In this document: positions 49,170-53,246 of the stretch, piece after piece
Position numbering within the stretch: the first letter of the stretch is position 1
Layout of the letters: each line of letters begins with the position of its first letter
The notes under the pieces: model-generated
Databases searched by the model: none
The model's input: only the letters and a program-made list of their open reading frames with translations
Told to the model about the DNA's origin: nothing
Translations under genes and position numbers: made by a program
Source of the DNA: Streptomyces aquilus
GTDB lineage: Bacteria; Actinomycetota; Actinomycetes; Streptomycetales; Streptomycetaceae
Direction of reading: 5' to 3'
Length of the DNA: 64,000 nt
Assembly (NCBI RefSeq): GCF_003955715.1
Contig: NZ_CP034463.1
Coordinates: 6,572,001 to 6,636,000, forward strand

Positions 49170-50210
49170 ATGACCACCGTTGCCGCGTACGCCGCCCCCG
49201 CCGCGAAGGCCCCGCTGGAGCGGACCTCCATCGAGCGACGCCCGGTCGGCGAGTTCGACGTCCTGATCGACATCAAGTTCGCCGGCATCTGCCACTCCGA
49301 CATCCACCAGGCCCGCGAGGGCTGGGGCGAGGCGATCTTCCCGATGGTCCCCGGTCACGAGATCGCGGGCGTCGTCTCCGAGGTCGGCCCCGGCGTCACC
49401 AAGTACACCGTCGGCGACCGGGTGGGGGTCGGCTGTCTCGTCGACTCCTGCCGGGAGTGCGACAACTGCAAGGCCGGCCTGGAGCAGTACTGCACCGGCG
49501 GCAACGTCGGCACGTACAACGCCGTCGGCAAGGACGGCGAGCCGACCTACGGCGGCTACTCGGAGAAGATCGTCGTCGACGAGAACTTCGTCGTCCGCAT
49601 CCCCGACGGCCTCTCGCTCGACGAGGCCGCTCCGCTCCTGTGCGCCGGGATCACCACGTACTCCCCGCTCAAGCACTGGAACGCCGGCCCCGGCAAGAAG
49701 GTCGCCATCCTCGGCATGGGCGGCCTCGGCCACATGGGCGTGAAGATCGCGCACGCGCTGGGCGCCGAGGTGACCGTCCTCTCCCAGTCCCTGCGCAAGA
49801 AGGACGACGGTCTGAAGCTGGGCGCCGACCACTACTACGCCACCAGCGACGAGGCCACCTTCAAGGAACTGGCGGGCACCTTCGACCTGATCCTGTCGAC
49901 GGTCTCGGCCCCGCTGAACCTCGACGCCTACCTGTCCCTGCTGAAGACGGACGGCGCCTTCGTGAACGTCGGCGCCCCCGAGGAGCCGGTCAAGCTCAAC
50001 CTCTTCTCGGTGATCGGCGGCCGCAAGACCCTCGCCGGATCCGGTATCGGCGGCATCCAGGAGACCCAGGAGATGCTGGACTTCTGCGCGGAGCACGGCT
50101 TCGGCGCCGAGATCGAGCTGATCAGCGCCTCGGAGATCAACGAGGCGTACGAGCGGGTGCTGGCGAGCGACGTCCGGTACCGGTTCGTGATCGACACGGC
50201 GACGATCTGA
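49170..50210 (+). CDS. Zinc-dependent alcohol dehydrogenase (MDR family)
   Basis: 346 aa; AGGAG before ATG 49170. Catalytic zinc ligands Cys in GICHSDIH, His-Glu in PGHEIAGVV, structural zinc Cys cluster [18 protein letters not shown](P) loop GMGGLGHMG. Closest in style to YahK/cinnamyl-alcohol dehydrogenase-like aldehyde reductases that use NADPH and reduce aldehydes such as those derived from stress or aromatic degradation. Diverges from the MmyB-like regulator that probably controls it. Confidence 0.93.
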
Positions 50211-50219
50211 CGGAACTGT

Positions 50220-50263
50220 GCGCGGTGCCGATGCCGGCCAGGACGTCCGGGTCGGCACCGCGC
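50220..50263. terminator. Hairpin terminator between ADH and TIR genes
   Basis: GCGCGGTGCCGA (50220-50231) pairs with TCGGCACCGCGC (50252-50263); 12-bp stem, 20-base loop, between convergent genes. Confidence 0.7.
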
Positions 50264-50267
50264 GCCT

Positions 50268-51242
50268 TCAGTTGCTGAGCAGGAAGTCGATGAACCGGTC
50301 GAACTCCACTTTGTTGGTGCTGGAGACCCACAGCTTGTCCCGGAAGAGCAGTGGAATGTCGGCCGGTTCACTGTCGGTCAGCAGCAGCGGGATGACTATG
50401 CGGGTGGAGTCACCACTCAGTTCGGCATTGAGGATCCCGCCGTACTCGGCGCGGGTCCAGCCGCTCCCGCTGATGTGCTTGCTGATGCAGGGCAGGACGT
50501 AATGGCTGCCGCGCAGCCCTTCTTCGATCTTCTCCGAGACACGGTCACCGAAGGTGATCTGTTCCTTGTCCAGCCAGTAGCTGATACCCCGGTCGGCGAG
50601 CAGCTTGGCGATGCCTTCCACTTCCTTCGCGGTCTGCGAGGCATGGCACAGAAACACGTCGTACTCGAACATCTGCCCTTCCTTTCGTCGGGCGTCCGCC
50701 GTGACGAACGGAATCCGGGTCCGCTCCGTCGCCCAGGACCTGGCCAGGACACCGGCGCCGTAGAACTTGATCAAGCCCGTGTAACCGGGGAAGGGCACAT
50801 GGGCGCAGGACGCGGTGATCTCGTACGTCCGCTCGCCTGCGCGTATCTCGCCGCGCACCTGGCCGGAGTAGAACTCCAGAGTGAACCGGTTGTACCCGCG
50901 GTCCAGGAGCACCGGTTCGTCGAGCTGGGCGACCGCTGTCAGCATGCCCTCCTGGAACACGGACAGCCGGGCGACGGTGGTGTCGGCCGCCGGGTCGTGC
51001 GGGGTCGTGTAGAAGGCGACGAACGTCCAGTCCTTGTTGGCCCGGCAGATCAGCCCGGCGCCGGTCGCCCGACGGGAGGTCAGCCGGATCTCGGCGGAGA
51101 CGGAGCCGTTGAGCACCGGTCCGGGCTCCAGGTCGATCACGTACGAGGCCGCGTATGGACCGACGCCGCCGCCGTGGCCGGCGAGCATTCTGCCGCCGAT
51201 GGGGGTCCAGTCGCCGCTATTCGATGCGTGCCAGTCGCTCAC
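50268..51242 (-). CDS. TIR-domain protein with lectin-like N-terminal domain
   Basis: 324 aa from GTG 51242, which overlaps the vWA stop by 26 bp; ATG 51188 is possible. N-terminal about 180 residues form a concanavalin/DUF1080-like beta sandwich (DWTPIGGRMLAGHGGG, GLICRANKDWTFVAFYTT, YNRFTLEFYSGQVRGEI). C-terminal TIR: EYDVFLCHASQTAKEV, LLADRGISYWLDKEQI, GDRVSEKIEEGLRGSHYVL, and SGSGWTRAEYGGI with Glu266 at the place of the catalytic Glu of NAD-cleaving TIRs. GC is lower than neighbours. Likely effector of a defence or stress module with the vWA gene. Confidence 0.82.
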   Translation of the reverse strand: MSDWHASNSGDWTPIGGRMLAGHGGGVGPYAASYVIDLEPGPVLNGSVSAEIRLTSRRATGAGLICRANKDWTFVAFYTTPHDPAADTTVARLSVFQEGMLTAVAQLDEPVLLDRGYNRFTLEFYSGQVRGEIRAGERTYEITASCAHVPFPGYTGLIKFYGAGVLARSWATERTRIPFVTADARRKEGQMFEYDVFLCHASQTAKEVEGIAKLLADRGISYWLDKEQITFGDRVSEKIEEGLRGSHYVLPCISKHISGSGWTRAEYGGILNAELSGDSTRIVIPLLLTDSEPADIPLLFRDKLWVSSTNKVEFDRFIDFLLSN

Positions 51243-52671
51243 GGAGTTTCCCGCGCGTCTCTTCGAGTGGGGTCTTCTGCTGGGGCAGGCGCTGGAGCAG
51301 TCGGTCGACGGTGCCGATCGCCTCGACGAGCAGCGCGATCTCCATCTCCTCGTCCATGTCGGTGACATCGAACTCGCGGGACTTCTTGCGCTGGCCCTCT
51401 GACATGAGGATCTTGCGCATGCTCATCAGCAGGCTCCGGGTCTCGGGCTCTTCTGGGAAGGCATCCACCAGATCGAACACGAGCAGCGCCGATATGTTCA
51501 TGTCGAGGTGATGCCGGAGATGGTCTATCTCATTCACCACACGAGTCTGGCCGATCATCGGCCTTTGACTGAGCAGACCCAATTCGACCGTCTGCATCCG
51601 GGTGATCTCGAGCGTCAACATCTCCTTCATCCCGCTGACGTTTCCGGCGGCCATGTTCCGGAGCATCTCCTCCTCGTTCTGCTCGGCCCGGTACTGGGCC
51701 ACCACGCTGCTGACCAGGGCGTGCACCCCGGTGGTGACCACCGTGTCCTGCGGCGCGAGGGCGATGGTCCGCTCGGCGGAGGCCTTTTCCTCGCTGCCGT
51801 CGTACAGAGTCGCCCCGATGGCGAACTCCGGGGCCTTCACCTGTGCCGGATCGATCTCCAGCCGTACCGCGAAGTTGAAGGTGTCCTGCCCTTTCAGCGG
51901 GCGCAGGCCGTAACGCCGGGAGATCTTCCGCAGAGAGTTCAGCTCCTCGCTGACGGTCACTCCGGGCGGCAGGGTCAGCTCGATTCTCGGGCGGTCGAGG
52001 ACCGTGGTGAGGGCGCTGCGGAACTCCTCTTCCAGGATGTTGTCGATGCCGGTCTCGGCGATGTACCAGAACCGGCCACCCGAGGCGGTGGCGATCGCCT
52101 CCAGCAGGTCCTCCTGGAAGTCGCTGCCGATGCCGATGGTGGACGTCGTGATGCCCTCGTCCCGGGCCCGGGACGCGACGGCGGCCAGCGCCGACTTCTT
52201 CGTCTCTCCGGCGTTCGCCTGCCCGTCCGACAGCAGGACCAGCCGGCCGTAGTGGTCTTCTGTCGTATGGCTCTGCAACTCCAGCAGCCCCTGGTACCAG
52301 CCCAGAGAGAGGTTGGTCGAGCCGCCGGGCCGGATGGCCTGGAGCCGGTCCTCGACCTGGTCCCGCGGAGTCTGCGGATTGACCACCACCTGAGCGGCAT
52401 GGTCGAAGACGACGACGGTGAACAGGTCGTCGCCGGTGATCCGCCGGAAGATGTCCACGCAACTGCGTTTGGCGGTCTCGAGTTTGTCCTGCGCGCCCAT
52501 GCTGCCGCTGCGGTCGATGACCAGGCAGAGATTCATGGCGCTGCCGGACCGTTCGGTACTCGTGGCGTAACGGCACCTGACCTCGATCGCCACGTCGAAT
52601 TCGGTCACCTCGTCGTTCCGCGCGGCAGGCCGCTCGGGGAGGACGAGGACTTCGATCGCTCGGTCGTCCAT
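51217..52671 (-). CDS. von Willebrand factor A (MIDAS) domain protein
   Basis: 484 aa. vWA domain near residues 45-215 with MIDAS DRSGSMG (Asp53), a Thr/Ser at GGSTNLS and Asp in LLSDGQANAGE. Followed by a beta domain of about 110 residues and a helical C-terminal region of about 150 residues (VSSVVAQYRAEQNEEEMLRN... ITRMQTVELGLLSQRP). No signal peptide or TM helix, so cytoplasmic. It ends inside the TIR gene start, so both proteins are probably made together. GC is lower than the surrounding genes, suggesting acquisition. Confidence 0.88.
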   Translation of the reverse strand: MDDRAIEVLVLPERPAARNDEVTEFDVAIEVRCRYATSTERSGSAMNLCLVIDRSGSMGAQDKLETAKRSCVDIFRRITGDDLFTVVVFDHAAQVVVNPQTPRDQVEDRLQAIRPGGSTNLSLGWYQGLLELQSHTTEDHYGRLVLLSDGQANAGETKKSALAAVASRARDEGITTSTIGIGSDFQEDLLEAIATASGGRFWYIAETGIDNILEEEFRSALTTVLDRPRIELTLPPGVTVSEELNSLRKISRRYGLRPLKGQDTFNFAVRLEIDPAQVKAPEFAIGATLYDGSEEKASAERTIALAPQDTVVTTGVHALVSSVVAQYRAEQNEEEMLRNMAAGNVSGMKEMLTLEITRMQTVELGLLSQRPMIGQTRVVNEIDHLRHHLDMNISALLVFDLVDAFPEEPETRSLLMSMRKILMSEGQRKKSREFDVTDMDEEMEIALLVEAIGTVDRLLQRLPQQKTPLEETRGKLRERLARIE

Positions 52672-52862: not shown

Positions 52863-53246
52863 ATGACTGTTCAGCTGAACCACACCATCGTCGCCGCACA
52901 CGACCAGCAGGCGTCGGCCCGGTTCCTCGCCGACATCCTGGGACTGGAAGTGGGCCCGCAGTACGGTCCCTTCATCCCCGTCGAGATACCCAACGGAGTG
53001 ACCCTGGACTTCATGGAGGCGTCCGGGGACATCACGCCGCAGCACTACGCGTTCCTGGTGTCGGAGGACGACTTCGACACGATCTTCGGCCGTATCGAGA
53101 AGCGGGGTCTGACGTACTGGGCGGACCCGTTCCACCGACAGCGGGGCGAGATAAACCACAACGACGGCGGCCGCGGCACGTACTTCGACGACCCGAACGG
53201 CCACAACCTGGAGATCCTGACCAGGCCCTACGGCAGTGGCGGCTGA
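52863..53246 (+). CDS. VOC-family (glyoxalase/dioxygenase-like) protein
   Basis: 127 aa from ATG 52863 (GAGGAGG upstream). Typical VOC pattern: LNHTIVAAHDQQASARFLADILGL, a beta-rich centre, and DDPNGHNLEIL with the C-terminal metal Glu; the early His in LNHT is the first metal ligand. Small one-module size, so works as a dimer. Substrate unknown: glyoxalase, bleomycin-resistance-like or dioxygenase roles all occur in the family. Followed 120 bp later by an NmrA-like gene. Confidence 0.88.
   Translation: MTVQLNHTIVAAHDQQASARFLADILGLEVGPQYGPFIPVEIPNGVTLDFMEASGDITPQHYAFLVSEDDFDTIFGRIEKRGLTYWADPFHRQRGEINHNDGGRGTYFDDPNGHNLEILTRPYGSGG

Follow-up and report, generated by a model that had tools for sequence, protein, structure and literature searches.

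Our analyses confirmed that the vWA and lectin-TIR genes located between positions 50268 and 52671 of the window, the 64,000-nucleotide stretch of Streptomyces aquilus DNA under study, form a genuine two-gene unit, conserved and rare, in which the TIR protein carries an uncommon N-terminal fold. We propose, with a probability of about 0.58, that this unit is a NAD-consuming immune module acting through an abortive response. An immune role is likely, and we infer that its function is anti-phage.

The gene encoding the vWA protein (484 aa; 51217..52671, minus strand) is followed by that of the lectin-TIR protein (324 aa; 50268..51242, minus strand), whose GTG start overlaps the vWA stop. The sequence-only reading had claimed that the two genes share 26 bp, and the coordinates of the overlap (51217..51242, minus strand) bear this out. 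An AGGGGG run that resembles a ribosome site was found immediately 5′ of the vWA gene ATG. Since the corresponding run at the TIR gene GTG is weak, TIR translation is likely coupled to that of the vWA gene via the 26-bp overlap. In addition, an inverted repeat read from the sequence (50220..50263, arms 50220-50231 and 50252-50263) sits between the TIR stop and the stop of a convergent dehydrogenase gene, and it is likely a terminator common to both genes.

GTDB species genomes were scanned with two peptide patterns, which yielded 11 loci; L015-L017 (35-37% over less than half of the query) were left out of the TIR-partner check. The lectin-TIR gene lay directly downstream of the vWA gene in 8/8 full-length loci outside the window, which belonged to three Streptomyces, Virgisporangium, Amycolatopsis, Westiellopsis, Scytonema and Pseudoduganella. 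The hosts therefore comprised actinomycetes, cyanobacteria (Westiellopsis and Scytonema) and a betaproteobacterium (Pseudoduganella). L018, which apparently comes from the same organism as L007, was also included in the downstream-gene check. When the window was counted, the overlap measured 26 bp in 5/9 loci, 29 bp in 2/9 and 23 bp in 2/9, and its relative frame was identical in the 9/9 loci examined. The proposal of a vWA and lectin-TIR pair encoded by overlapping genes was thus corroborated in every full-length locus.

At least 42 of the 73 source-contig sizes of TIR relatives recurred exactly among the 119 from vWA relatives, a strong but indirect sign that both sets of relatives are located on common contigs. 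A distance test was carried out on 73 of 100 distinct TIR proteins and 119 of the 887 vWA relatives passing the E limit. Rows were paired by equal size of the source contig, and 44 of the 47 assembled pairs were kept after a length filter. Pairwise distances of the vWA and TIR proteins correlated with an r of 0.93 over these 44 pairs, the maximum of 1000 shuffles being 0.21; host relatedness or common ancestry contributes to this value. The products of the two genes diverge in step. Both the vWA and the TIR trees presented two deep halves with full support, while several finer forks were weak. The two cyanobacteria fell in different halves: Scytonema with Pseudoduganella, joined by Micromonospora in the vWA tree, and Westiellopsis with other actinomycetes. 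Because the cyanobacteria are split over the two tree halves, transfer of the pair between phyla as a unit is favoured, although an old duplication with later losses may also account for the split trees.

The lectin-TIR protein combines an N-terminal concanavalin-type beta-sandwich (residues 1-178; 50709..51242, minus strand) with a TIR domain (residues ~190-324; 50271..50675, minus strand; PF13676, E 7e-20). W262 and E266 are present in the window TIR domain, where the codon of the putative catalytic Glu266 occupies 50445-50447 (minus strand), and both residues were invariant in 25/25 and 49/49 aligned rows. They align in register with the Trp-xxx-Glu of AbTir 8g83. The catalytic Glu of AbTir is E208 (PMC10022894), and this would be the residue aligned to Glu266. 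The expected Glu had been anticipated correctly from the sequence, and a TIR fold by profile together with a Glu at the W-xxx-E position predicts a domain of the NAD-cleaving type. The structural model of the protein was weak at residues 261-280 (pLDDT 58), the stretch that holds Glu266, the relative placing of the two domains was uncertain (pTM 0.57), and the linker joining the TIR to the CBM66-like domain was poorly modelled.

Residues 1-178 did model as the concanavalin-type sandwich that had been placed ahead of the TIR domain, and CBM66 was the closest solved fold and the best fold match among the matches listed. Nine N-domains gave no CBM or lectin family in Pfam at E 10 and no PDB sequence match to any CBM; the lectin assignment is a fold-level match predicted from the model. 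Among proteins under ~330 aa, 62 of the 65 matches to the N-terminal domain carried a TIR, and the remaining three were pieces without it: P0188 (225 aa), P0219 (109 aa) and P0221 (110 aa). The domain was not found on other effectors within these 65 matches. Six-frame searches with no size limit returned only the already-known genome both in the phylum of Westiellopsis (1/319) and in the class of Pseudoduganella (1/185).

In the vWA protein, a vWA domain (residues ~45-222) with an intact MIDAS splits a beta-sandwich, and a helical bundle (residues ~308-483) forms the C-terminus. The MIDAS noted from the sequence was verified: D53, S55, S57, T119 and D149 are all present and were invariant across 61 aligned vWA proteins (members of the 61 vWA and 49 TIR alignments were selected from hit lists). 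Among the matches listed, the model of most of the protein resembles archaeal ArnB and the Sec23/24 core, sharing with them the predicted layout of a vWA inserted in a beta-sandwich and then a helical bundle; identity to ArnB, VWA2 (ArnE) and the Sec23/24 core is 15-16%. The helical bundle was the fastest-changing of six regions, with a mean identity of 33%, compared to 38% for the first 44 residues of the vWA protein, 45% for the lectin domain, 49% for the vWA protein beta part, 53% for the TIR and 66% for the vWA domain. As the most variable of the six regions, it is probably the likeliest recognition or regulatory surface of the pair, although rapid C-terminal evolution also fits a loss of constraint.

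The TIR gene was present in 2/392 sampled genomes of the genus, window genome counted (E limit 1e-40), and the full-length vWA gene in 1/396 sampled genomes of the phylum, which was the window genome itself (E limit 1e-60). These counts rule out a core gene and point to an accessory pair; universal presence in Streptomyces, one of the two outcomes that would have refuted the sequence-only reading, did not occur. Among 339 cyanobacterial genomes, a full match was found in Westiellopsis only and a shorter vWA match in five others. In the window, the pair fills a 2652-bp gap that separates a zinc alcohol dehydrogenase gene (49170-50210), convergent with the TIR gene, from a glyoxalase-type gene (52863-53246) on the vWA-gene side. 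The dehydrogenase occurs in 33 genomes, that of the window included, and its region was compared in 13 others. The glyoxalase-type gene was near the dehydrogenase in 4/13 of these relatives: L071 and L075 carried near-empty sites (gaps of ~0.25 and ~0.14 kb), and in L069 and L070 the gap was occupied by a siderophore-type transport operon (two genes checked by Pfam). It was not found in the fetched stretch of the other 9/13, one of which ends at a contig edge by a FecCD-like gene. The S. spongiae pair also lies beside this dehydrogenase and is oriented as in the window. The dehydrogenase-glyoxalase gap is a variable site.

No direct repeats bracket the pair in the window: every repeat detected has one copy or more within the pair and looks like chance, and insertion by a recombinase was accordingly rejected. 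Phage records gave one weak vWA match (46% of the query), and none of the 22 IMG/VR stretches that matched the pattern encodes a relative. Relatives of the vWA protein appeared on 25 plasmid records, none covering 80% and most at 26-35% identity, and lectin-TIR queries from the window or Scytonema had no plasmid match at E 1e-20. Only one plasmid, Gloeothece citriformis pP742404, carried a close relative, a fragment corresponding to vWA residues 1-138 that shares 81% identity with the Westiellopsis protein across 144 aa. On these grounds, phage or plasmid cargo was discarded. Five Synechocystis plasmid matches (H9, H11-H14) placed a vWA-like match under a gene annotated as a macro-domain protein; a link of such vWA proteins to ADP-ribose chemistry is possible.

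We also scanned ten neighbouring ORFs in the window and found no dedicated defence gene. Three of them, an ABC ATPase, a permease-like protein and a helix-turn-helix regulator, had PADLOC matches that we took as generic. At related loci, selected genes were scanned, with neither a matched control nor a statistic. Beside the Virgisporangium pair (L010) lie a TIR gene of the CAP12/Pycsar type and a gene for a vWA-TIR protein. The ORF directly downstream of that pair (L010:10235-13297; up to 1020 aa, start uncertain) has its own vWA and TIR domains. One TIR gene of Westiellopsis (L012) includes a stretch resembling AbiTii (below the Pfam cut-off), and two further TIR genes are present there; the 22.6-kb Gloeothece plasmid (L029) carries a ThsB-type gene, an annotated CBASS phospholipase gene and an AAA-TIR gene.

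In the mechanism that we propose, the two proteins would be produced at a constant ratio and assemble into a complex that keeps the TIRs apart in resting cells. An infection or damage cue would be bound by the vWA protein, through its MIDAS face or helical bundle, and/or by the lectin domain, and would change the complex so as to bring the TIRs together. The clustered TIRs would then cleave NAD+ and growth would stop before phage release. This immune-module reading draws on the TIR family and its catalytic pair W262/E266, on the maintenance of the pair with its overlap in 8/8 loci and the r of 0.93 between distances, and on the combination of rarity (2/392 and 1/396), cross-phylum trees and a variable site. 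It also draws on the TIR, ThsB, CAP12-TIR and CBASS-type genes beside L010, L012 and L029, and on the fast helical bundle (33% vs 66% for the vWA domain), whose rate would suit a recognition surface. By analogy, a sensor brings TIRs together in two precedents: SpbK binds the portal of the phage through its N-terminal domain, which clusters its TIR (PMC12847820), and ThsB1 binds the capsid protein and recruits ThsB2 (PMC12578639). Against it stand the weak model at Glu266 (pLDDT 58) with the uncertain domain placing (pTM 0.57), the phage and plasmid matches, which are weak, fragmentary or distant, and the window neighbours. The defence role suggested by the sequence-only reading was therefore upheld in part: it is favoured by the TIR domain, by how few genomes carry the pair, by the split trees and by the conflict genes at three related loci, whereas the surroundings in the window, with no dedicated defence gene in ten scanned neighbours, do not speak for it. 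A more specific version, which we put forward tentatively and as rather doubtful, is that the lectin domain would recognise an invader molecule directly, being wired to a TIR NADase and gated by a Sec23/24-core-like vWA hub, in a manner similar to eukaryotic TRIM/SPRY logic. Such a molecule may be a tail protein or receptor-binding protein of a phage, or else a cell-wall or capsule glycan that has been displaced and lies inside the cell.

Alternatively, the TIR could work as in Thoeris, making a cyclic ADP-ribose-type messenger to which a separate effector encoded elsewhere responds, which we regard as unlikely. ThsB-type models do match the TIR domain, and a third, helical gene family adjoins the pair in the two cyanobacteria, Westiellopsis and Scytonema, and in Pseudoduganella (L012:10715-11620, L013:8163-8681 and L014:7398-7940). 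The two cyanobacterial members had no Pfam family above the cut-off and no PADLOC match, and the N-terminal extension of the Westiellopsis member looks membrane-spanning, a further point for this alternative. The third family was also detected on 10 plasmid records, five of which were examined. Its gene directly adjoins a TIR gene in Photobacterium, lies near one with an IS5 transposase in between in Streptomyces longwoodensis, and corresponds in Mesorhizobium to a weak match (E 5e-6) within a patatin-like protein amid three TIR genes; it adjoins a GUN4-domain gene in Calothrix and unnamed genes in Ruegeria. This occurrence near TIR genes also counts for a messenger system, and the family is a candidate adaptor of TIR systems. 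However, a tblastn search of the five actinomycete loci L007-L011 with the third gene gave no match at E 1e-4, and no other gene was seen to be common to the actinomycete pairs in an informal comparison. Since no third gene was seen common to them, we favour the window TIR as the final killer, that is, the executing NADase, rather than a second-messenger maker.

It is improbable that the pair, rather than being directed at phages, serves multicellular bacteria as a switch for self-recognition, development or stress-induced death. Several hosts are filamentous (Streptomyces, Scytonema and Westiellopsis), which speaks for this explanation. The mode of such a switch, equally improbable, would be an ArnB-like vWA that receives a nutrient or phospho-signal and causes part of the hyphae or filament cells to lose NAD; it fits with the ArnAB state following nutrient availability via phosphorylation (PMC12852372) and with multicellular taxa dominating vWA-MoxR conflict systems (PMC7159879 and PMC8195603). 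Nevertheless, a developmental function would call for a far wider occurrence than 2/392 and 1/396. The lectin-TIR protein is carried also by Microcystis, Waterburya and Pseudoduganella, none of which is known to be filamentous. The pair could finally be a glycan-sensing or sugar-metabolism accessory with no immune role and a TIR acting only as a protein-protein adaptor, as the CBM66 fold match, best among those listed, and the putative status of TIR catalysis would allow. The invariance of Trp262 and Glu266 in 49/49 aligned proteins makes this very unlikely, as does a Pfam scan of seven window neighbours, in which no gene for a sugar enzyme appeared.

Should the preferred immune-module reading be right, the pair adds a TIR system with a concanavalin-fold sensor and gives a part in immunity to an ArnB/Sec23-24-like vWA hub, a type described in vesicle coats and in the control of archaeal motility. 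If the TRIM/SPRY-like version were also true, TIR immunity in bacteria would include a novel sensing principle. With a length of just 2.4 kb, the pair is easily cloned, and the immune question can be put directly to the test in laboratory Streptomyces.

Regarding known systems, PADLOC matched the TIR domain only (PDC-S66, RT-TIR, SAVED-TIR, ThsB and Argonaute-associated TIR) and gave no match for the vWA protein, and the open-licence literature searched, covered in part, contained no description of a vWA and lectin-TIR pair, in line with the initial impression that it is not a named system. Like Thoeris, the pair has two genes and a TIR with NAD+ as the presumed substrate, but it contains no ThsA-like partner: the ThsA model had no match at E 1e-3 in ten window neighbouring ORFs, both direct neighbours included. 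The PADLOC ThsB models match only within residues ~181-286, and no ThsB profile spans the full lectin-TIR protein. The MoxR-vWA ternary systems (VMAP, iSTAND and TERNS3; Kaur et al. 2020, 2021), as presented in PMC7159879 and PMC8195603, likewise combine a vWA with effectors that include TIR and occur in cyanobacteria, actinobacteria and proteobacteria. The pair differs from them by its ArnB-layout vWA and its separate lectin-TIR effector. Two MoxR proteins of the window genome, one of which recovered the other at 46% identity, served as queries and retrieved no MoxR ATPase gene (E 1e-3) from the window or from nine locus stretches of 10.7-19 kb (two from one organism); a very divergent MoxR might escape. 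A MoxR-vWA ternary system was ruled out by this one feature tested, the absence of an adjacent MoxR gene.

As do SpbK and further TIR NADase defences that consist of one gene, the pair places a conserved-Glu TIR behind a non-TIR N-terminal domain. In SpbK, however, this domain is a 4-helix bundle and not a lectin-type sandwich, and the protein is described as acting without a vWA partner (PMC12847820), whereas the pair has a constant vWA partner gene. ArnB, VWA2 (ArnE) and the Sec23/24 core differ from the pair in that the partner of its vWA protein is a TIR protein, and compared to CBM66 of Bacillus subtilis, the CBM66-like fold is here joined to a TIR. A 2021 survey (PMC8195603) noted that its authors had so far seen no conflict system of prokaryotes with SPRY-like domains, which have a concanavalin fold and play a prominent part in antiviral proteins of animals. 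The N-terminal domain of the pair has a predicted concanavalin fold like SPRY, assigned at fold level and not as SPRY.
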